NCBI GenBank assembly: GCA_945889005.1 | Contig: CAMDBI010000009.1 | Location: 45,074 to 109,073, forward strand | Length of the DNA: 64,000 nt | Direction of reading: 5' to 3' | From: Bacteroides fragilis | Lineage (GTDB): Bacteria; Bacteroidota; Bacteroidia; Bacteroidales; DTGW01 | Part shown: positions 3,843-46,145 of the stretch, one piece after another | Numbering within the stretch: the first letter of the stretch is position 1 | Layout of the letters: the number at the start of each line of letters is the position of its first letter | Position numbers and translations under genes: made by a program | Notes under the pieces: model-generated | The model's input: the letters and a program-made list of their open reading frames with translations, nothing else | What the model was told of the DNA's origin: nothing | The model's database searches: none

Positions 3843-6134
3843 GTGAAAGTACAACAAAAATTTATGATCCTTTTGTTATCAACTTCGTTGGTAATAATAT
3901 CTTCTTTAATTGGTTATCAATACCTTTCGCTTCAGCAAAAAAAAATATTTTACAAAATCAATGAACAAAGCCATGCCGATGTAATCGACAATGTAATTCA
4001 CTTACGATCAGAACAATTCGAAGATTTTGCACGCGACTATTCCGGATGGGACGAAATGCTAGATTTTTCAAAAAAAGTAGATAAACAATGGGCAGAACAC
4101 AATATTGACCTTTCATTATATACATACAAGCTCTCTTTTTGGTCGGTCTATAATAAAAATGAGGAAAATATTTATTTCTTTAAAGACACAACTTGTTCTT
4201 TAAAAGATACTAGATTGTTGACCGAAAATCTAAATAAAATTTTTTCAAAGAATCCGATCAATCATTTCTATTTGTTTATCGATGAGCATTTGTATGAAAT
4301 AATTGGAGCAACCATAGTTTCATCGCAATTTGTTAATTATAGAGTTGGTATACCAGCAAATGGCTATATGTTTGTTGCCAAAGAGTGGAGCAAACAATTT
4401 GTTACTAATCTCGAAAAGGCTGTAAATTTTAACATTATTATACATCCTTACCCCGATCTCGATTCATCAAATTTCCATACCAACGACCAATATATTATTA
4501 ATAACAAAACATTAAACGATTTTGAAGGCAAACCAATTGCCGATATTCATTTTATTAAACCCAACAGTTTGAAAAGAGAACTAAGTTCTTCTTTAACTAT
4601 TACCTATTTTATTATTGGCTCAATAATTCTTACTTTAATTATTTTTCTCATTCTATTTCGAATTTATTTTGTAAAACCCATAAAGTCTATTACCAATGCT
4701 TTAATTGAAGGAGAACAAAGCAACATTTCTCAACTAAAAAAAAATAAAGACGAATTTGGAGAAATAGCTCGCATGATCGAAAAATCTTTTGAACACGATT
4801 TATTAATAAAAGAGGTGAATAATAAATTAATAAATCAGACAGAAGAAATACAGGCACAAAAAGATCTTTTGGTCGAATCAAAAGAAGAGCTTACTGCCAT
4901 TAACCGCGAATTGTGGTTTCAGACTCATGCTCTCAACGAAACTTCGTATGTTACCATTACCGACTCTTGTGGAAATATTACCTATGCCAACGACAAATTT
5001 TGCAGCATTATGGGATATCCATTCGAAGAGTTGATTGGACAAAACCATAGAATATTAAAATCAGGTATCCATACCGATGAAGTATTTAGTATCATGTGGC
5101 AAACTATTTCGGTCGAAAAACGAATTTGGCGTTCGGAAGTTTGCAATAAAACAAAAAATGGAGATCTCGTTTGGTTCGATTCATTTATCGTTCCTTTTCT
5201 CAACGAAAAAGCAGAACCTTATCAGTACATGGCTATGCGTTTCGACATAACCGACAAAAAACGCGCTGAAGAAGAAAGTATTTTTAAAAACAACGAGTTG
5301 AAAAGAAAGAATCAAGAAATTGAAAATATTACCAATCAAATAATGTCGAGTTTGGAATATGCTCATACGATTCAATTAGCTTTATTACCATCCGACGAAT
5401 TCTTAACACAGCTTATTCCCGATCATTTTGTTTTTTACAATCCATTAGAAATCGTTAGTGGCGACTTTTATTGGGCCAATATTTACAAGGAAAAAATAAT
5501 GTTTGCAGTTGGCGATTGTACAGGTCACGGAGTTCCTGGGGCAATGATGAGTATGTTGGGTATTTCGTTTCTGAACGATATATATAAAAGCCACGAACTC
5601 AGCGAAGCGCATTTAATGATCAATGAACTTCGAAACCGAATCATTAATAATTTACATCAAACCGGTAAAATTGGTGAGCATCACGATGGAATGGATATTG
5701 CTTTGGGAATAATCAATCTCGAAACTTACGATTTAGAATATTCTGGAGCATTCAATCCAATTGTAATTATTAGAAAAGATTGTGAAGAAATAAGTGGATA
5801 CGAAAATATGTCGCTCAATGGGTTTACTGCTCACGTTTTGAAAGGCGATAGAATGCCTGTTGGATTCTACCACGGTGCTCAACAAAGTTTTTCGAAACAT
5901 ACTTGGAAACTACAAAAAGACGACACTTTATACTTCTTTACCGATGGTTTTATCGATCAAACAGGAGGTGGAGATCATAAAAAATACAGACTCAACAACT
6001 TTGTAAAAACACTTCTTCAAATACAGGAATACCCAATGCAAGTTCAACACCTGGCTTTGAATCAGGTTTTAATAGACTGGATGGGAGATTCGCACCAAGT
6101 CGACGATATACTGGTGATGGGAGTGAAGATATAG
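3843..6134 (+). CDS. Membrane sensor with HAMP, PAS and SpoIIE/RsbU PP2C phosphatase domain
   Basis: A 763-residue one-piece sensor. There is an N-terminal membrane segment (~7-28), then an extracytoplasmic sensor of ~220 residues with a CHASE4-like DYSGWDEM stretch. A second membrane segment (~250-273), a HAMP linker, a short coiled coil and a PAS domain (~360-475, with GNITYANDKF) follow. The C-terminal PP2C phosphatase (~515-763) has SGDFYW, GDCTGHGVPGAMMSMLG and FFTDGF motifs. Such proteins usually dephosphorylate an anti-anti-sigma factor or a similar partner; none is encoded nearby. The start is GTG: the overlapping ATG at 3841 is followed at once by TGA. Ligand unknown. Confidence 0.85.
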   Translation: MKVQQKFMILLLSTSLVIISSLIGYQYLSLQQKKIFYKINEQSHADVIDNVIHLRSEQFEDFARDYSGWDEMLDFSKKVDKQWAEHNIDLSLYTYKLSFWSVYNKNEENIYFFKDTTCSLKDTRLLTENLNKIFSKNPINHFYLFIDEHLYEIIGATIVSSQFVNYRVGIPANGYMFVAKEWSKQFVTNLEKAVNFNIIIHPYPDLDSSNFHTNDQYIINNKTLNDFEGKPIADIHFIKPNSLKRELSSSLTITYFIIGSIILTLIIFLILFRIYFVKPIKSITNALIEGEQSNISQLKKNKDEFGEIARMIEKSFEHDLLIKEVNNKLINQTEEIQAQKDLLVESKEELTAINRELWFQTHALNETSYVTITDSCGNITYANDKFCSIMGYPFEELIGQNHRILKSGIHTDEVFSIMWQTISVEKRIWRSEVCNKTKNGDLVWFDSFIVPFLNEKAEPYQYMAMRFDITDKKRAEEESIFKNNELKRKNQEIENITNQIMSSLEYAHTIQLALLPSDEFLTQLIPDHFVFYNPLEIVSGDFYWANIYKEKIMFAVGDCTGHGVPGAMMSMLGISFLNDIYKSHELSEAHLMINELRNRIINNLHQTGKIGEHHDGMDIALGIINLETYDLEYSGAFNPIVIIRKDCEEISGYENMSLNGFTAHVLKGDRMPVGFYHGAQQSFSKHTWKLQKDDTLYFFTDGFIDQTGGGDHKKYRLNNFVKTLLQIQEYPMQVQHLALNQVLIDWMGDSHQVDDILVMGVKI

Positions 6135-6285: not shown

Positions 6286-6325
6286 ATTAGTCATTTGTAA
6301 TTTGTCATTAGTAATTTTTTAGTCA
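6286..6325. repeat. A+T-rich TCATTAGT microrepeat, second copy
   Basis: ATTAGTCATTTGTAATTTG is followed by TCATTAGTAATTTT and AGTCAT. It belongs to the same family as 3753-3787. It runs into the 3' end of the XRE regulator, whose stop codon at 6319-6321 lies inside the repeat. Confidence 0.65.
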
Positions 6326-6519
6326 TACTCTTCGAGCCAAAACAATTCATCAACTCTTTTTTGCAATACCCTTGCTATTTTCAATGACAAAAGCGTTGAT
6401 GGAATGAATTTTCCTGATTCAATAGATATTATAGTCTGCCTACTAACCCCTGTATTACTAGCCAATTCCTCTTGTGTAATTTTTTTTAAATCCCGTTCTA
6501 TTTTTAAAGTATTCTTCAT
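6319..6519 (-). CDS. Small XRE-family helix-turn-helix regulator
   Basis: A 66-residue protein that is almost wholly one HTH domain (ITQEELASNTGVSRQTIISIESGKF), like the YozG group of compact Cro/CI-type regulators. The upstream GTG at 6546 would add nine residues, but the ATG at 6519 gives the family-typical MKNTLKIERDLKK start. The gene runs divergently from the leucine leader. A perfect 16-bp palindrome lies 41 bp upstream of its start and is the obvious candidate operator. Relatives often sit beside a small membrane protein gene; none is present. The target is unknown. Confidence 0.85.
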   Translation of the reverse strand: MKNTLKIERDLKKITQEELASNTGVSRQTIISIESGKFIPSTLLSLKIARVLQKRVDELFWLEEYD

Positions 6520-6619: not shown

Positions 6620-6627
6620 TATGTTTG
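6620..6627 (+). promoter_or_regulatory. -7 element of the leucine operon promoter
   Basis: TATGTTTG matches TAnnTTTG. No good -33 TTG is seen at the usual distance. Transcription would start near 6634, about 14 nt before the leader peptide ATG. Confidence 0.5.
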
Positions 6628-6647
6628 CATAGTGAAAGAAAAAAACG

Positions 6648-6719
6648 ATGAAAAACTTAACAATTATATTGTACATTATAGCGATCGATAGTATTATACT
6701 ACTTCTCCAAGTGGTCTAA
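6648..6719 (+). CDS. Branched-chain amino acid leader peptide (attenuator)
   Basis: A 23-codon open frame starting ATG AAA AAC and ending GTG GTC TAA. Its composition is 7 Ile, 5 Leu and 2 Val, that is 14 of 23 residues, with clusters Ile-Ile, Ile-Ile, Leu-Leu-Leu and Val-Val. The leucine codons are diverse (TTA, TTG, CTA, CTT, CTC). It begins about 14 nt after the predicted transcript start. A terminator hairpin follows 24 nt after its stop and leuA lies beyond. This is the classic layout of ribosome-mediated attenuation: scarcity of charged Ile, Leu or Val tRNA stalls the ribosome and lets transcription continue. No homology search was made. The call rests on composition and layout, which are hard to explain by chance. 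Confidence 0.85.
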   Translation: MKNLTIILYIIAIDSIILLLQVV

Positions 6720-6742
6720 TGTTCCTATTTGCAAGATTTAAT

Positions 6743-6777
6743 AAAAGCGTAGGAAATAGAATCTTACGCTTTTTTTA
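6743..6777 (+). terminator. Attenuator terminator upstream of leuA
   Basis: The arm 6743-6754 (AAAAGCGTAGGA) pairs with 6762-6773 (TCTTACGCTTTT) with one G-U pair and a 7-nt loop, and a run of T follows. TTCCTA at 6722-6727, just after the leader stop, can instead pair with TAGGAA at 6750-6755. That would break the 5' arm, making it a short candidate antiterminator. The terminator lies about 135 nt before leuA, so it must be conditional if the operon is expressed from this promoter. Confidence 0.8.
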
Positions 6778-6787
6778 TTAATAAAAC

Positions 6788-6838
6788 TGTCATTCCGAAC
6801 GACTTGTGCTGAGTGCAGTCGAAGTAAGTGAGGAATCT
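6788..6838. repeat. REP-like palindromic unit in the leu leader
   Basis: It starts GTCATTCCGAACGACTT and ends GTCGAAGTAAGTGAGGAATC. Its halves can fold on each other (ACTTG...GAAGT, GCTGAGTGC). I recognise the GTCATTCCGAAC / GAGGAATC word pair from intergenic repeats in many Bacteroidota genomes. It sits between the attenuator and leuA. Confidence 0.6.
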
Positions 6839-6910: not shown

Positions 6911-8407
6911 ATGGCAAACGACAAAGTATATATTTTCGACACTACCCTTCGCGATGGCGAACAAGTGCCTGGTTGTCAATTGAACACAATTGAAAAAATT
7001 GAAGTGGCAAAAGCTTTAGAAGCATTAGGAGTAGATGTTATAGAAGCAGGTTTTCCAATTTCGAGCCCTGGCGATTTTAAATCGGTGGTAGAGATTTCTA
7101 AAGCAGTAAAAGATGTTACGGTCTGCGGCTTGACTCGTGCAGTAAAAAAAGATATTGAAGTTGCTGCCGATGCACTTAAATCTGCTAAACGACCACGTAT
7201 TCATACGGGTATTGGTACGTCGTACTACCACATTCACTACAAGTTAAAATCAAATCCGGAAGAAATTATTAAACGTGCGATAGATGCAGTAGCTTATGCT
7301 AAAACATTTGTAGAGGACGTTGAGTTTTATGCCGAAGATGCCGGAAGAACCGAAAACGAATACTTGGCTCGTGTTATTGAGGCTGTTATTGGAGCCGGAG
7401 CTACAGTAGTAAATATTCCCGACACTACAGGTTATACTGTTCCTGATGAATATGGAAGAAAAATACGTTTCTTGAAAGAAAACGTAAAAAACATCGACAA
7501 AGCAATTATTGCTACACACTGTCACAACGACTTGGGTATGGCTACAGCAAACTCAATTGCCGGTATTATGAATGGTGCTCGTCAGGTTGAATGTACCATC
7601 AATGGTATTGGCGAACGTGCCGGAAATACTTCGCTCGAAGAAATCGCTATGATTCTTAAATGCCGTAAGGATATTAAACTTACTACTGGTATTAATACAA
7701 AAAAGATAATATCGACAAGCCGTTTAGTATCTACTTTGATGCGTATGCCTGTACAGCCTAATAAAGCAATTGTGGGTCGCAATGCATTTGCTCATTCATC
7801 GGGTATTCATCAGGATGGAATATTGAAAAACCGCGAGAATTATGAGATTATGGATCCTAAAGATGTAGGGTTGAGCGAATCGTCTATTAAGCTTACTGCC
7901 CGTAGTGGACGTGCAGCACTTAAACACAGACTTGAGCGCTTAGGTCATACTATCGAAGGCGAAAAACTTGAAAAAGCTTATGAGCAATTCCTTGCTTTAG
8001 CAGATAAAAAGAAAGAAATAAACGACGAAGATTTGTTGTTGTTGATTGGCGAAGAACGCAGCGACAAAAACAAAATTAAACTTGAATATTTGCAAGTTGT
8101 TTGTGGAAAGTCGGCTAAACCAATGGCCACTGTAACTTTGAAGTATAATGGTGAGAAATTAACTGAAACAACATCGGGCAATGGACCTGTCGATGCAGCA
8201 TTTCATGCCATTCGCAAGATTGTGAAATCGAAAGCCAATGTCGAAGAGTTTTTGGTTCAGGCAATTACTCGTGGAAGCGACGATTTAGGAAAGGTACACA
8301 TCCAATTGGCTTATAAAGGTTCAACTTTTTACGGTTTTGGCGCCAATACCGATATTATTACAGCATCGGTCGAGGCTTATGTAGATGCATTAAACAATTG
8401 TATATAA
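6911..8407 (+). CDS. leuA: 2-isopropylmalate synthase
   Basis: Condenses acetyl-CoA with 2-oxoisovalerate, the first committed step of leucine synthesis. The 498-residue protein opens with [16 protein letters not shown], the signature of the DRE-TIM metallolyase family. Further on it has the metal-binding HCHNDLG and NGIGERAGN motifs. The C-terminal third (~370-498) has the length and pattern of the LeuA allosteric domain that senses leucine ([12 protein letters not shown]). It is the first structural gene after the leader-peptide attenuator. Full length, no anomalies. Confidence 0.95.
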
Positions 8408-8553: not shown

Positions 8554-9924
8554 ATGAAAACATTATTTGAAAAAGTATGGGAAAAGCATGTGGTACATCA
8601 AATACAAGATGGACCTGCTGTATTGTACATCGACAAACATTTGATACACGAAGTTACCAGTCCTGTAGCTTTTAAAGGTCTCGACCGACGTGGCATTAAA
8701 GTTCGCCGACCAGACCGCACTGTAGCTACTCCCGATCACAATATACCTACTATTGAGCAAGAATTGCCTATCAAAGAAGAATTGTCGCGTTTGCAGGTTC
8801 AGCAATTGACCGATAATACAACGAATCATAATATTCAATTATATGGTTTAGGGCATCAATACAATGGTGTTGTACATATAATTGGACCCGAATTGGGCAT
8901 CACTCAACCGGGTATGACAATTGTATGTGGCGATAGTCACACAGCTACGCACGGAGCATTTGGGTCTATCGCTTTTGGAATAGGCACATCTGAAGTCGAA
9001 ATGGTTTTGGCTTCGCAATGCTTATTTCAATCGAAACCCAAAACTATGCGTATTACAGTAAATGGTCAATTGAGCAAAGGGGTTACATCAAAAGATATTA
9101 TCCTATATATTATTGCAAAATTAACAGCTGGTGGTGGTACAGGATATTTTGTCGAATTTGCGGGTTCAGCCATTACAAGTTTAAGCATGGAAGCTCGTAT
9201 GACCATCTGTAACATGGCTATTGAAATGGGTGCTCGTGGAGGCATTATTGCTCCCGATCAAACTACTTTCGATTATATCAAAGGTCGCGAATTTGCCCCA
9301 AAAGGTGCCGACTGGGATAAGGCAGTTGCATACTGGAAAACATTGCCTACCGACTCAGGCGCAAAGTTCGATTTAGAATTGACTTACGATGCAGCTGATA
9401 TTGAACCCATGATAACATACGGAACCAATCCGGGTATGGGTTTGAAAGTAACTCAAAACATACCGGCCAATGAACCCAATGTGAAAGCATTGGAATATAT
9501 GGGCTTGAAAGCAGGTCAACCAATGATTGGTCAGCCTATCGATTATGTTTTTATTGGTAGTTGTACCAATGGACGTATCGAAGATTTCCGCTCATTTGCA
9601 TCGATTGTGAAAGGAAAAAAGAAAGCCGAAAATGTTACTGTTTGGATTGTTCCCGGTTCGAAACAAGTTGAAAAACAAATTATTGCAGAGGGTCTGAAAG
9701 ATATATTCGAAGCAGCCGGAATGCCACTTCGTCAACCTGGTTGCTCTGCATGTTTGGCAATGAACGAGGACAAGGTACCTGCCGGAAAATATAGTGTAGC
9801 TACATCGAACCGTAACTTCGAAGGTCGTCAAGGACCCGGATCTAGAACTTTTTTGGTAAGCCCACTTACTGCTGCAGCTGCTGCTATTACAGGTAAAGTA
9901 AGCGATGTGAGAGAATTAATTTAA
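8554..9924 (+). CDS. leuC: 3-isopropylmalate dehydratase large subunit
   Basis: With LeuD it isomerises 2- to 3-isopropylmalate. The 456-residue protein is of aconitase type. Fe-S ligands are visible as the Cys in [13 protein letters not shown] and the pair in [22 protein letters not shown] is another family motif. It lies in the leu operon, 146 nt after leuA, with a tandem repeat in the gap. Full length and intact. Confidence 0.95.
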
Positions 9925-10004: not shown

Positions 10005-10595
10005 ATGGAAAAATTTCAAACAATAACAAGTACTTGTGTTCCCCTTCAGATCGAAAATGTGGACACTGACCAAATAATACCAGCACGATTCTTGAAAGCA
10101 ACATCGCGCGAAGGTTTTGGCGATAATCTTTTCCGCGACTGGCGATACGAGAACAACATCCAGCCTAAGAAAGATTTTATTTTAAATAATTCGACTTACA
10201 AGGGCGAAATATTGGTTGCAGCCAAAAACTTTGGTTGCGGATCGAGCCGCGAACACGCTGTTTGGGCAATTTACGATTATGGCTTCCGAATTGTTGTTTC
10301 GAGCTTTTTTGCCGATATCTTTAAAAACAATTCGCTCAATTGTGGGTTATTACCTGTACAAGTTACCGATGCGTTTTTATCGAAGATTTTTGCGGCTATT
10401 GAAAAGAATGCAAATGCCGAATTGAAAGTCGATTTACAAAATCAAACCATTACCATTGTTGCAAGTGGTGAGTCAGAGAAATTTGACGTAAACACATACA
10501 AAAAAGAATGTATGTTAATGGGTTTCGACGATGTAGATTACCTTTTAAATCTTAAAGACAAAATTGTAGCATACGAAGAAGCTGAAAATAAATAA
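10005..10595 (+). CDS. leuD: 3-isopropylmalate dehydratase small subunit
   Basis: The swivelling small subunit of isopropylmalate isomerase, 196 residues. It has the early NVDTDQIIPARFL and the central NFGCGSSREHAVWA motifs that are diagnostic for LeuD. It lies 80 nt after leuC. Length is normal for the family. Confidence 0.95.
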   Translation: MEKFQTITSTCVPLQIENVDTDQIIPARFLKATSREGFGDNLFRDWRYENNIQPKKDFILNNSTYKGEILVAAKNFGCGSSREHAVWAIYDYGFRIVVSSFFADIFKNNSLNCGLLPVQVTDAFLSKIFAAIEKNANAELKVDLQNQTITIVASGESEKFDVNTYKKECMLMGFDDVDYLLNLKDKIVAYEEAENK

Positions 10596-10596
10596 G

Positions 10597-10714
10597 AACA
10601 CTGAGACACAAAGACACAGAGTTCTAAATAATTCAATAGTAACTAAACTTTTTGAGTTTTAATTGTTTATTAAGTAATAGTTTTTAATCCTCTGTGGCTC
10701 CGACGCTCAGTGTT
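10597..10714. repeat. Large imperfect inverted repeat, GACACAGAG family
   Basis: The outer arms AACACTGAG (10597-10605) and CTCAGTGTT (10706-10714) pair perfectly. Inner words CACAGAG and CTCTGTG also pair. The sequence GACACAAAGACACAGAG resembles the stem at 63345-63400. It fills the leuD to second-synthase gap, and the GTG at 10710 falls inside its right arm. Confidence 0.65.
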
Positions 10715-10727
10715 AATACAAAAAAAT

Positions 10728-12239
10728 ATGAGAATAGAAATAATGGATACTACCTTACGCGATGGAGAACAAACCAGCGGCGTATCGTATACCGATGGCG
10801 AAAAGCTTAGTATTGCAAAGGTATTATTAGACGATGTTAAAGTCGATCGTATAGAAGTAGCTTCAGCTCGTATCTCGGAAGGTGAGTACAAAGGTGTTGA
10901 AATGATTACTTCTTGGGCTCGAAAAAATGGACATATCGATAAAATTGAGGTGCTTGGCTTTGTCGATGGTACTGCTTCATTAGACTGGATTGTTAAAGCC
11001 GGAGGGAAGGTTATCAATTTATTGACAAAAGGTTCTGAAAAGCATTGCATAAAACAATTGCGCAAACAACCAGCCGAACATATTGCAGACATTAAGAATT
11101 CTATTGCATACGCTCGAAAAGTAGGTGTAACTGTCAATGTGTATCTCGAAGATTGGTCAAACGGCATGCGTAACTCTAAAGATTATGTATATTATTTGCT
11201 CGACCAGCTTAGAAACGAAGGAATTGTTCGTTTTCTTTTACCCGATACTTTGGGTGTTTTAAACCCAGACGAATCGTATGAATTTGTTCACGATATCGTA
11301 AATCGCTACCCCGAACTTCATTTCGACTTTCATGCACACAACGATTACGATTTAGCAGCAGGCAATGTTTATGCAGCAATTAAAGCTGGGGCACATGGAA
11401 TACACACAACCGTAAATGGACTTGGCGAAAGAGCTGGTAATGTGCCTTTAGCCAGTGTTGTAGCTATTATGCGCGATCAACTAAAACTTGAAGTAGTTAT
11501 TAACGAATCGAAACTTACTCAAGTAAGCCGTTTGGTTGAATCATTCTCTGGAATACGTATACCTGGCAATAAACCAGTAGTAGGGGAGTATGTATTTACT
11601 CAAACTGCTGGCATTCATGCCGATGGCGACGCAAAAAACAACTTGTATTACAACGACTTGCTACCTGAACGATTTGGCAGACAACGTCAGTATGCATTGG
11701 GTAAAATGTCGGGAAAAGCTAGTATTCAGAAAAACCTCGAGGAACTTGGAATAGATCTATCGTCCGACGATATGAAAATTCTTACTGCTCGCATTATTGA
11801 ACTTGGCGACAAAAAAGAAACCATTACCAAAGAAGATCTTCCTTACATTATTGCAGATGTTCTCAGCAGTTCATCTATAGAAAATAAAATTATTATTAAA
11901 AATTATTGTCTTTCTGTAGCCGAAGGACTAAAATCTTCTGCAACCTTAAAGCTTGATGTCAATGGTACAGAATATCAAGCAACAGCTTCTGGCGATGGTC
12001 AATACGATGCTTTTATGAACTCGCTACAAAGTATTTATAGCAAACTCGATCGCTCCCTTCCTCAACTTACCGACTATGTTGTAACTATTCCTCCTGGTGG
12101 ACACACCGATGCTTTGGTAGAGTGTATTATAACATGGCGTATAAATGAAAAAGATGTAAAAACACGAGGACTCGATCCCGATCAAAGTATAGCTGCCATA
12201 AAAGCAACTGTTAAAATGTTGAATATATTAGAAAAATAA
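10728..12239 (+). CDS. Isopropylmalate/citramalate synthase family enzyme (second paralogue in leu operon)
   Basis: A 503-residue DRE-TIM enzyme starting [20 protein letters not shown]. It has the catalytic HAHNDYD and NGLGERAGN motifs and a C-terminal LeuA-like regulatory domain (~380-503, SGDGQYDAFMNSL). It is clearly diverged from the leuA product of the same operon. By position and family it may be a citramalate synthase (pyruvate + acetyl-CoA, feeding isoleucine), which would let LeuCD and LeuB serve both pathways; that is inference. It could equally be a second isopropylmalate synthase. The in-frame GTG at 10710 lies in a repeat arm, so the ATG at 10728 is preferred. leuB follows after 6 nt. 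Confidence 0.75.
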   Translation: MRIEIMDTTLRDGEQTSGVSYTDGEKLSIAKVLLDDVKVDRIEVASARISEGEYKGVEMITSWARKNGHIDKIEVLGFVDGTASLDWIVKAGGKVINLLTKGSEKHCIKQLRKQPAEHIADIKNSIAYARKVGVTVNVYLEDWSNGMRNSKDYVYYLLDQLRNEGIVRFLLPDTLGVLNPDESYEFVHDIVNRYPELHFDFHAHNDYDLAAGNVYAAIKAGAHGIHTTVNGLGERAGNVPLASVVAIMRDQLKLEVVINESKLTQVSRLVESFSGIRIPGNKPVVGEYVFTQTAGIHADGDAKNNLYYNDLLPERFGRQRQYALGKMSGKASIQKNLEELGIDLSSDDMKILTARIIELGDKKETITKEDLPYIIADVLSSSSIENKIIIKNYCLSVAEGLKSSATLKLDVNGTEYQATASGDGQYDAFMNSLQSIYSKLDRSLPQLTDYVVTIPPGGHTDALVECIITWRINEKDVKTRGLDPDQSIAAIKATVKMLNILEK

Positions 12240-12245
12240 AAAACA

Positions 12246-13304
12246 ATGAGTAGAACATTCAAAATTGCTGTAATGCCCGGCGACGGAATTGGTCCCGAGG
12301 TTACAGCGCAGGCCATAAAAGTATTAAAGGCATTAGAGCCAAAATTTGACGTAACGTTCGATTTTAACGAAGTATTAATTGGAGCTATTGCTATAGACCA
12401 AACTGGCAACCCACTACCCGACGAAACCATTGCCGCCTGCAAGGCTTCGGACGCTGTATTGTTGGGCGCTGTTGGGCACCCTCGTTTCGACAATGACCCT
12501 GGTGCAAAAGTGCGCCCCGAACAAGGATTGTTGAAAATACGCAAAGAATTAGGCTTATATGCCAATATTCGCCCTGTTGCTACTTATGCTTTGTTAAACG
12601 AAGCATCGCCTATCAAAACTCACCTTCTAAAAGACGTTGATATGGTAGTATATCGCGAACTTACCGGAGGTATTTATTTTGGCGAAAAAGGTCGTAAAGA
12701 TGATGGAAAAACAGCATACGACAATTGCATTTATACCGAAGAAGAAGTTCGTCGTGTGGCGCATTTGGCCTTTAAAATGGCTCGTACACGTCGTAAAAAA
12801 CTAACCTTGGTCGACAAGGCCAATGTGCTCGAAACAAGTCGTTTGTGGCGAGAAGTGGTTAAGAAAATGGAGGCCGAATATGCCGATGTAACTGTTGATT
12901 ATATGTTTGTAGACTCGGCTGCCATGAAATTAGTTACTTGGCCAGCTTACTTCGACGTTATTTTAACCGAAAATATGTTTGGCGACATACTTACCGACGA
13001 AGCTTCGGTAATTACTGGTTCAATAGGTTTATTGCCTTCGGCATCGGTAGGCGATACATTTGCTCTTTTTGAACCAATTCATGGTTCTTATCCACAGGCA
13101 GCAGGTAAAAATATTGCCAATCCTTATGGCACAATTTTAAGCGCGGCAATGTTGTGCGATCACATTGGCTTACCCGAAGCTGCTAAAGCAATTCGTAATG
13201 CTGTTGACAAAGGTCTTGAAAACGGTATTGTTACTGTTGACATTAACGCTAGCAACAACAATTCGACATCGGAAGTTGGCGATTGGATAGCTAAGAACTT
13301 ATAA
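12246..13304 (+). CDS. leuB: 3-isopropylmalate dehydrogenase
   Basis: Oxidatively decarboxylates 3-isopropylmalate to 2-oxoisocaproate with NAD. The 352-residue protein has the GDGIGPEV start, RPEQGLLKIRKELGLYANIRP, YRELTGGIYFG and the metal-site segment ENMFGDILTDEAS. The HGSYPQAAGKNIANP cofactor loop is also present. Last gene of the leu operon; a very strong terminator follows. Confidence 0.95.
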   Translation: MSRTFKIAVMPGDGIGPEVTAQAIKVLKALEPKFDVTFDFNEVLIGAIAIDQTGNPLPDETIAACKASDAVLLGAVGHPRFDNDPGAKVRPEQGLLKIRKELGLYANIRPVATYALLNEASPIKTHLLKDVDMVVYRELTGGIYFGEKGRKDDGKTAYDNCIYTEEEVRRVAHLAFKMARTRRKKLTLVDKANVLETSRLWREVVKKMEAEYADVTVDYMFVDSAAMKLVTWPAYFDVILTENMFGDILTDEASVITGSIGLLPSASVGDTFALFEPIHGSYPQAAGKNIANPYGTILSAAMLCDHIGLPEAAKAIRNAVDKGLENGIVTVDINASNNNSTSEVGDWIAKNL

Positions 13305-45011: not shown

Positions 45012-46145
45012 TTATTTTTTTAAGGCTTCGTCTAATGGAATTATTTTCCCATTTTTTGTAGCAACAATGAAAGCGTTTGGGTAATGCTTTTTTACTTGTT
45101 TGGAAAAATATACACATGATTCATAGGTAGTATCGGATCCTATAAGGTATTTATATATATTATTGTGATATATTTCTTCAACCCCAATCTCTTTTGCTTG
45201 TATTTTTTTAATATTCTTTAAAAATTGAGAATTTTGGTCGACTTGTTTCGACGATGACGATATTTGCACTTTAAATAAAACTATACTATCTAGTAAAAAA
45301 GTGTCTCGTTCTTTAACTATAGTTTGCACTTTGGTTTGGTAATTTGTTTTACTTTCAATGCCATTTTTATAAGCCTCAAATGCTTTAAATATCGATTGAG
45401 CCAACAAATCCTGGCCATTTGTAGAACTTAAAAAAGCTTCTTCTTTTGGATTTGAAATAAATCCTATTTCGATCAATATCGCAGGCATTGTGGTTTTCCA
45501 TAAAACGAGAAATCCTGCTTGTTTTTTACCTTTATCGGTTCGTTGAGCAATTTTTGAGAAATTTGCTTGCACATTATCTGCAATTTCTAAGCTCTGTTGC
45601 AAATAGGTGTTTTGCATCAGCGAAAAAATAACAAACGATTCGGCAGAGTTGGGATCGTAGCCTTCGTATTTGGTGGTATAATCGCTTTCAAGCGTAATTA
45701 CAGCATTTTCTTTTTTGGCTACTTCGAGGTTTTTCTCATCGGTATGAAGACCCATAACATACGTTTCTGTTCCAAAAGCGCGGGTATTGGTACTCGAATT
45801 GGCATGAATAGATATAAACAAGTCGGCATGGTTTTTATTAGCTATCTCGGCTCGTTGGTGAAGTTCAACAAAAACATCTTTGTCGCGGGTATAAATAACT
45901 TCTACTTCGGGATAAGTTTTTTTAACATATTCGCCCAAAAGTAAGCCAATAGCAAGAACTACATCTTTTTCGTAAGAATTTGTACCCACTGCTCCGGGGT
46001 CTTTCCCGCCATGACCGGGGTCTATCACTATTTTTCTGATTTTACTATTGTCGGTTTGAACTTGCGAATATGCAGAAAGTGTCTGACTAACAATAAATAA
46101 AATTAAAAAATGTTTTATAAATATGATTGTTCGTTTTGTTTTCAA
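45012..46145 (-). CDS. N-acetylmuramoyl-L-alanine amidase
   Basis: 377 residues. A signal peptide (~1-28) is followed by the zinc Amidase_3 domain (~38-260), with IVIDPGHGGKDPGAVG, ELHQRAEIAN, FISIHAN and ILIEIGFISNPKEE giving the zinc and catalytic residues. The C-terminal ~90 residues resemble a SPOR-like peptidoglycan-binding domain. It cleaves peptidoglycan side chains, for example during daughter cell separation. The only start codon available is TTG at 46145. Confidence 0.9.
   Translation of the reverse strand: MKTKRTIIFIKHFLILFIVSQTLSAYSQVQTDNSKIRKIVIDPGHGGKDPGAVGTNSYEKDVVLAIGLLLGEYVKKTYPEVEVIYTRDKDVFVELHQRAEIANKNHADLFISIHANSSTNTRAFGTETYVMGLHTDEKNLEVAKKENAVITLESDYTTKYEGYDPNSAESFVIFSLMQNTYLQQSLEIADNVQANFSKIAQRTDKGKKQAGFLVLWKTTMPAILIEIGFISNPKEEAFLSSTNGQDLLAQSIFKAFEAYKNGIESKTNYQTKVQTIVKERDTFLLDSIVLFKVQISSSSKQVDQNSQFLKNIKKIQAKEIGVEEIYHNNIYKYLIGSDTTYESCVYFSKQVKKHYPNAFIVATKNGKIIPLDEALKK

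Follow-up and report, generated by a model that had tools for sequence, protein, structure and literature searches.

The stretch of DNA analysed here (64,000 nucleotides (nt), positions 45,074 to 109,073 of contig CAMDBI010000009.1, assembly GCA_945889005.1; in the following the window) contains a leucine biosynthesis operon of what is likely a Bacteroidales bacterium. A short leader frame and a hairpin, which together form a candidate transcription attenuator, precede leuA, the first gene of this operon. The following features were found, all of them on the plus strand:

6620-6627, +, -7-type box TATGTTTG (pattern match to TAnnTTTG), predicted promoter of the leader transcript
6634-6647, +, A-rich initiation region without Shine-Dalgarno sequence ahead of the leader ATG (from the sequence)
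6648-6719, +, leader peptide frame MKNLTIILYIIAIDSIILLLQVV (from the sequence; frames of like composition at the same place in relatives)
6693-6707, +, last control codons ATT ATA CTA CTT CTC (Ile-Ile-Leu-Leu-Leu), likely stalling site (from the sequence)
6722-6728, +, putative antiterminator 5' arm (segment 2), TTCCTAT, forming a helix of 7 base pairs (bp) with 6749-6755
6743-6754, +, terminator 5' arm, the inner part of which, with the first loop base (6749-6755), is the putative antiterminator 3' arm (segment 3)
6762-6776, +, terminator 3' arm (segment 4) and T-run (6770-6776)
6911-8407, +, leuA, 2-isopropylmalate synthase (NF002086 755 bits, cut-off 532; TIGR00973 694 bits, cut-off 598.7)
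8554-9924, +, leuC (TIGR00170 669 bits, cut-off 560.25)
10005-10595, +, leuD (TIGR00171 205 bits, cut-off 116.25)
10710-12239, +, CimA-like synthase, likely a citramalate synthase of the isoleucine route (best family NF042433 CimA, 665.5 bits, below the curated cut-off of 950)
12246-13304, +, leuB (TIGR00169 454 bits, cut-off 353.2)

The leader frame extends from the ATG at 6648 to the stop codon TAA at 6717-6719. Its 23 codons encode the peptide MKNLTIILYIIAIDSIILLLQVV, which contains 7 isoleucine (Ile), 5 leucine (Leu) and 2 valine (Val) residues, i.e. 14 branched-chain residues. The predicted terminator hairpin (12 bp, 6743-6754 with 6762-6773) begins 23 nt past this stop codon and is followed by seven T residues at 6770-6776. 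In a preliminary description of this DNA, a frame of 23 codons with 14 branched-chain residues had been reported to follow a TAnnTTTG box, and a 12-bp terminator with a T-run had been placed within 24 nt of it and ahead of leuA. Both observations hold, with the box TATGTTTG lying 20 nt before the ATG. The clustering of Ile, Leu and Val codons in a short leader and the predicted terminator between this leader and the first structural gene are hallmarks of classical attenuators, and both are present here. When the 410 nt ahead of leuA were shuffled with dinucleotides preserved (n = 600), a terminator-like hairpin occurred in 9 sequences and an ATG frame ahead of such a hairpin in none.

Upstream regions of leuA were collected by means of LeuA from four other genomes of the same family (three with readable upstream DNA) and from the best 80 named contigs among the matches listed; further regions came from 36 genomes of the same order and from 40 genomes of other orders or classes. 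Three duplicates (L089, L099 and L110 of L009, L034 and L057, respectively) and one locus of which leuA is cut by the contig end (L008, genome G002) were left out before counting. The remaining 157 distinct upstream regions comprised 117 from the same order or of Bacteroidales type, including the window, and 40 from outside the order. The detection rule asked for a frame of 9-45 codons and a hairpin with a T5 run, the frame having to stop no more than 70 nt ahead of the hairpin and no more than 8 nt within it; 67 of the 117 regions and 2 of the 40 complied. In 59 of the 117 the frame was rich in Ile and Leu and was followed by a terminator-like hairpin. Within the family of the window itself, this arrangement occurred in two (L006 and L007) of the three relatives with readable upstream DNA. 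The unrelated, non-conserved frame in relatives, which had been named beforehand as the outcome speaking against attenuation of the leu operon, was therefore not what was found, and the proposal of leader-peptide attenuation gains support. Residues beyond the Ile/Leu core differ widely among the leaders of relatives. A MAFFT alignment of ten leaders, in which the window was poorly aligned in the hairpin region, was kept out of all counts.

The presence of a leader goes along with the gene order. A gene ilvC on the same strand within 900 nt upstream was found at 28 of the 58 leuA loci without a leader versus none of the 59 with one. Leaders thus occur where leuA opens the operon and not where it follows ilvC. 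In two of these 28 loci (among L017-L117), the ilvC product comprises 349-350 amino acids (aa) and matches TIGR00465 with a far higher score than NF003557. The ilvC of the window's own genome encodes a protein of 491 aa of the NF003557 type, hence two different ketol-acid reductoisomerases exist within the order.

It had also been proposed that TTCCTA (6722-6727) pairs with TAGGAA (6750-6755) in competition with the terminator. Both motifs lie at these positions, and, including a wobble pair, TTCCTAT and GTAGGAA (6749-6755) form a helix of 7 bp that overlaps the terminator 5' arm. When the nascent stretch 6719-6757 was folded, this antiterminator helix was predicted to form (-6.4 kcal/mol). 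In the same family, L007 shows an 11-bp helix at the same place (p 0.010); L006 scored poorly with the ungapped helix measure (p 0.50), and the fold of its nascent stretch is a bulged antiterminator (-14.5 kcal/mol). At 47 of the 59 leader loci, the best pairing of the stop region with the terminator 5' arm scored above shuffles of that region at p ≤ 0.05. Arms from the same locus reached a mean score of 12.5 in comparison to 9.2 for partners swapped between loci, and none of 5000 permutations was as high. By eye, the helix is recognizable in unlike sequences, such as TGAGAATGG with CCATTCTCA, GGAAGTGAG with CTCACTTCC, or, in the family of the window, TTTCCTG with CAGGAAA. Of the features expected to co-vary among relatives, the alternative hairpins indeed do so. 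The position of the stop codon does not; instead, the distance between the control codons and the arm is nearly constant.

This distance was determined where the helix score reached 11 or more (48 loci), and only codons upstream of the arm were taken into account, likewise in the shuffles. From the last Ile/Leu codon pair to the start of the antiterminator arm it had a median of 12 nt (interquartile range (IQR) 11-13); in the window, the last Ile/Leu codons end 14 nt before the arm. Spacings of 9-14 nt occurred in 39 of the 48 loci. When the codon order was shuffled 2000 times, 17% of the loci on average and at most 42% fell into this range. The position of the arm relative to the stop codon varied more widely (IQR -20 to -3); in the extreme cases, the stop codon followed the start of the arm by 24 nt or preceded it by 4 nt. 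Two types of leaders can be distinguished, one with the stop codon as part of the arm and one in which the frame encloses the arm and continues beyond it. With a spacing of about 12 nt, the front of a ribosome that has stalled on the last control codons would stop shortly before the arm, as the switch would require. The geometry is that of a classical attenuator, in that a ribosome at the control codons would leave the arm free and one at the stop codon would cover it, as judged from usual ribosome footprints.

Several observations weigh against attenuation at leuA. In the window, the 7-bp helix taken alone does not exceed chance (shuffle p 0.255), and its energy of -4.6 kcal/mol compares with -13.5 kcal/mol for the terminator hairpin, into which the complete stretch folds. 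Antitermination would therefore have to act kinetically. The shuffle test for the antiterminator was failed by 12 of the 59 leader loci. No leader was detected in 58 of the 117 regions; besides the 28 with ilvC, two comprise less than 150 nt upstream of leuA, and the other 28 lack an explanation or escaped detection. One of the 58 regions is that of L005, which has the closest LeuA within the family (82%) and no leader. Outside the order, none of the 40 leuA upstream regions carries an Ile/Leu-rich leader, and the two frames detected there hold only 2 of 9 and 2 of 10 such residues. As other genes often precede leuA in these genomes, this shows merely that leaders are absent directly before leuA. 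Finally, the 59 leaders were chosen by their Ile/Leu/Val content, and weak, doubtful members (L090, L123) are included. In the other direction, the detection rule missed some candidates, since L028, L029 and L034 hold Ile/Leu-rich frames and a hairpin with a T5 run was not detected.

The choice by content bears on the alternative that the short frame has arisen by chance in AT-rich DNA and that the hairpin is an ordinary terminator, which shields leuA from transcription coming from upstream. AT-rich DNA readily yields Ile and Leu codons, and 4 of 23 control pairs of frame and terminator elsewhere in the fetched loci also reached at least 40% Ile/Leu/Val; the comparison with these pairs is a weak one, because selecting the leaders for the same content makes it partly circular. 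The argument for attenuation rests on the position, the antiterminator, the spacing and the separate use of Val described below, because none of these was used in the selection. They speak against a chance frame, as do the shuffles of the region before leuA, the conserved placement and the leaders with Val, His, Trp or Phe before matching genes. In addition, apart from the one that ends at 6134, there is no same-strand gene just upstream that the hairpin could terminate, and a promoter-type box lies in between. An insulating terminator with a chance frame is thus very improbable.

What the DNA shows directly is a leader frame followed by a hairpin and a T-run, two possible pairings that overlap, and the return of this arrangement in relatives. 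Taken together, these findings make it very probable that the leader region serves the leuA-leuC-leuD-cimA-like-leuB operon as a transcription attenuator of the ribosome-mediated type, and the comparative support for this function is strong. In attenuators of the E. coli trp, his, leu and ilv type, a leader with cognate codons and a terminator precede the first gene, and a competing antiterminator arm is covered by the ribosome that finishes the leader; here, a leader and a predicted terminator of this kind are accompanied by a putative competing antiterminator arm. In the proposed mechanism, the leader would be translated while the RNA polymerase transcribes the hairpin region behind it, and the position of the ribosome would decide which of the two overlapping hairpins forms. 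If charged Ile- and Leu-tRNA are plentiful, the ribosome would reach the stop codon and cover segment 2 (6722-6728), the terminator (6743-6773) would form, and transcription would end near 6776. If they are scarce, the ribosome would wait at 6693-6707, and the free segment 2 could pair with 6749-6755, so that the operon would be transcribed. Ile and Leu as signals fit the operon, because leuA, leuC, leuD and leuB make leucine and the CimA-like synthase, although below its cut-off, would supply the isoleucine route. In the minimum-energy fold of 6634-6780 of the window, the 3' part of the frame pairs with 6717-6732 and takes in part of segment 2, which touches on the question of a protector (1:2) hairpin. 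Two differences from the classical attenuators are apparent. The lineage lacks Shine-Dalgarno initiation, with the leader starting about 20 nt after TAnnTTTG in A-rich sequence, and the leader stop codon often lies past, within or ahead of the antiterminator arm.

Five further amino acid operons of the same genome were examined by means of family searches and fetched stretches. In four of the five, the leader matches the amino acid of its own pathway, each leader being followed by a terminator-like hairpin:

L172 169-304, ilvD leader MKLLNTVLVVVVVVVLKNIE, Val-rich
L173 about 973-1098, -, hisG leader MNKQTTHILSIPMHHHHHGRLLP, with a His run (MHHHHH)
L174 2199-2320, trpE leader MITINKIWWWQLFLMNPWG, with a Trp run (WWW)
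L215 595-732, pheA leader MSVLASLVGYFYFYFFFATQKSRD, rich in Phe and Tyr (FYFYFFF)

For the gene of homoserine dehydrogenase, neither a hairpin nor a leader was found in the 5.5 kb fetched. At L040, an Ile/Leu/Val-rich frame MSLLHHILFVLIIVIIIIPP lies ahead of a terminator on the minus strand (near base 7291 of the reverse complement) and away from leuA; it is possibly the leader of a neighbouring operon. An interspersed repeat, TGCTGAGYGNAGYCGAAGTAAG (at most 2 mismatches), has 36 copies in the genome of the window (reversed control 0). One copy lies between the terminator and leuA (window 6807-6828) and another between the ilvD terminator and ilvD (C17:385-406).

The distinction between Val and the other two branched-chain amino acids is also seen elsewhere in the order. 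Among 39 ilvD upstream regions (38 fetched and that of the own genome), 26 carry an Ile/Leu/Val-rich leader. Of these, 23 were counted as standing apart from leuA, and in the other 3 leuA belongs to the same run of genes. Val accounts for 112 of 287 Ile, Leu and Val residues in the 23 separate ilvD leaders, for 5 of 28 in the three joint ones and for 31 of 593 in the 59 leuA leaders. In all 12 genomes carrying both leaders, the Val share is higher in the ilvD leader, and the antiterminator test was passed by 17 of 22 ilvD leaders. Control by Val is accordingly predicted to be separate from that of the leu operon, as the genome's own ilvD-led operon bears a Val-rich leader. These leaders also bear on the possibility that the product of the frame is a small, hydrophobic membrane protein acting in its own right, with a transcript set apart by the terminator. 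Small proteins of this kind exist, and the leuA leader is hydrophobic. The composition nevertheless tracks the downstream pathway, including runs of His and Trp that are not membrane-like, and the variability of the residues outside the Ile/Leu core likewise speaks against this possibility. Such a protein is extremely improbable here.

With respect to transcription and translation starts, TAnnTTTG alone is not rare, since 107 matches occur in the window in comparison to a mean of 98 in shuffles. Within 70 nt upstream of the leader start, the box was found at 44 of 59 loci with a median gap of 22 nt, versus 9.5% of 2900 random 70-nt windows from the same upstream regions. Adenine is enriched ahead of the 59 leader starts, at -5 in 44, at -6 in 37 and at -14 in 37. 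In Flavobacterium johnsoniae, A at -3, -6, -12 and -13 favours initiation (PMC6847099).

A divergent gene for an HTH_3 (XRE-type) protein of 66 aa is located at 6319-6516 on the minus strand, between the upstream gene and the leuA leader. If this protein mainly controlled the promoter, attenuation would be of minor importance. A counterpart that is 57% identical (37/65) is likewise divergent before leuA in L006 (3312-3512, +), which is in favour of such a role. No HTH_3 gene was seen in the frame lists of the L005 or L007 upstream regions, however, and genes for small XRE proteins frequently have no relation to the genes next to them, so that main control by this gene is very unlikely.

Other modes of attenuation, namely a T-box, a riboswitch or a Leu-sensing protein, have to be considered as well, as they control the same genes in other phyla. 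T-boxes and riboswitches gave no match at the Rfam gathering thresholds in the window or in 20 leuA loci, and no Rfam family matched the leader in these sequences. Since the short distance and the matching of the codons leave no room for a large aptamer, these modes are highly unlikely at leuA. The Bacteroid-trp RNA (RF01692), which is said to include a Trp-codon leader, gave no gathering-score match for the leuA leader in the window or in the 20 leuA loci, including the own one; the trpE leader was not scanned separately. Vitreschak et al. (2004) reportedly predicted attenuators of branched-chain amino acid, his and trp operons also in Bacteroidetes/Chlorobi.

The preliminary description knew of little work on such leaders in this phylum, yet the field is not blank. 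For Flavobacterium psychrophilum, strong clues for leader-peptide attenuation upstream of amino acid operons were reported in 2021, and hisG and pheA were found to have conserved 5' elements without Rfam hits (PMC9723704). Phylum, proposed mechanism and location upstream of amino acid operons are the same as for the leuA leader; unlike here, neither a leuA leader nor a peptide nor the geometry of an antiterminator is given in the main text (PMC9723704). Small open reading frames reminiscent of leader peptides were described for Bacteroides thetaiotaomicron in 2020 (PMC7366714), and the Bacteroid-trp RNA is listed as a cis-regulatory candidate of Bacteroidetes (PMC2864571). In Actinobacteria, a leader frame with a Leu run is present upstream of leuA (LEU element) and a leader with a terminator upstream of ilvB, similar to the situation here; in contrast to the leuA LEU element as described there, the window locus has an intrinsic terminator (PMC1262725). 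According to an article from 2010, no leader-peptide system had been shown outside Proteobacteria and Actinobacteria, to which Firmicutes were then added (PMC2965389). No description of these leuA leaders was found in the searchable literature, with most subscription papers and supplements out of reach. Leader-peptide attenuation was hence already suspected in the phylum, and what looks new is the anatomy of the leaders throughout the order, without an Rfam match in the loci scanned.

Beyond the leu operon, it is reasonably probable that attenuation of this type is used throughout the order, with the leader of each operon built from codons of the amino acid concerned (Ile and Leu for leu-cimA, Val for ilv, and His, Trp and Phe/Tyr for the others) and with the switch set by a ruler of about 12 nt from the last control codon to the antiterminator arm, matching the front of the stalled ribosome and independent of the leader stop, in a lineage without Shine-Dalgarno pairing. 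If this is true, Bacteroidales would control several amino acid pathways by ribosome-read attenuators in spite of mRNAs without Shine-Dalgarno sequences. Ribosomes would then have to load on nascent leaders and keep pace closely with the RNA polymerase, and two points, the closeness of translation to transcription and the fast loading of leaders without Shine-Dalgarno sequence, would become open to simple reporters. The sequence rule of cognate codons, an arm about 12 nt further on and a terminator may also help to annotate short frames likely to be passed over by gene finders, and it predicts the amino acid controlling an operon, here Ile/Leu for leu apart from Val for ilv.
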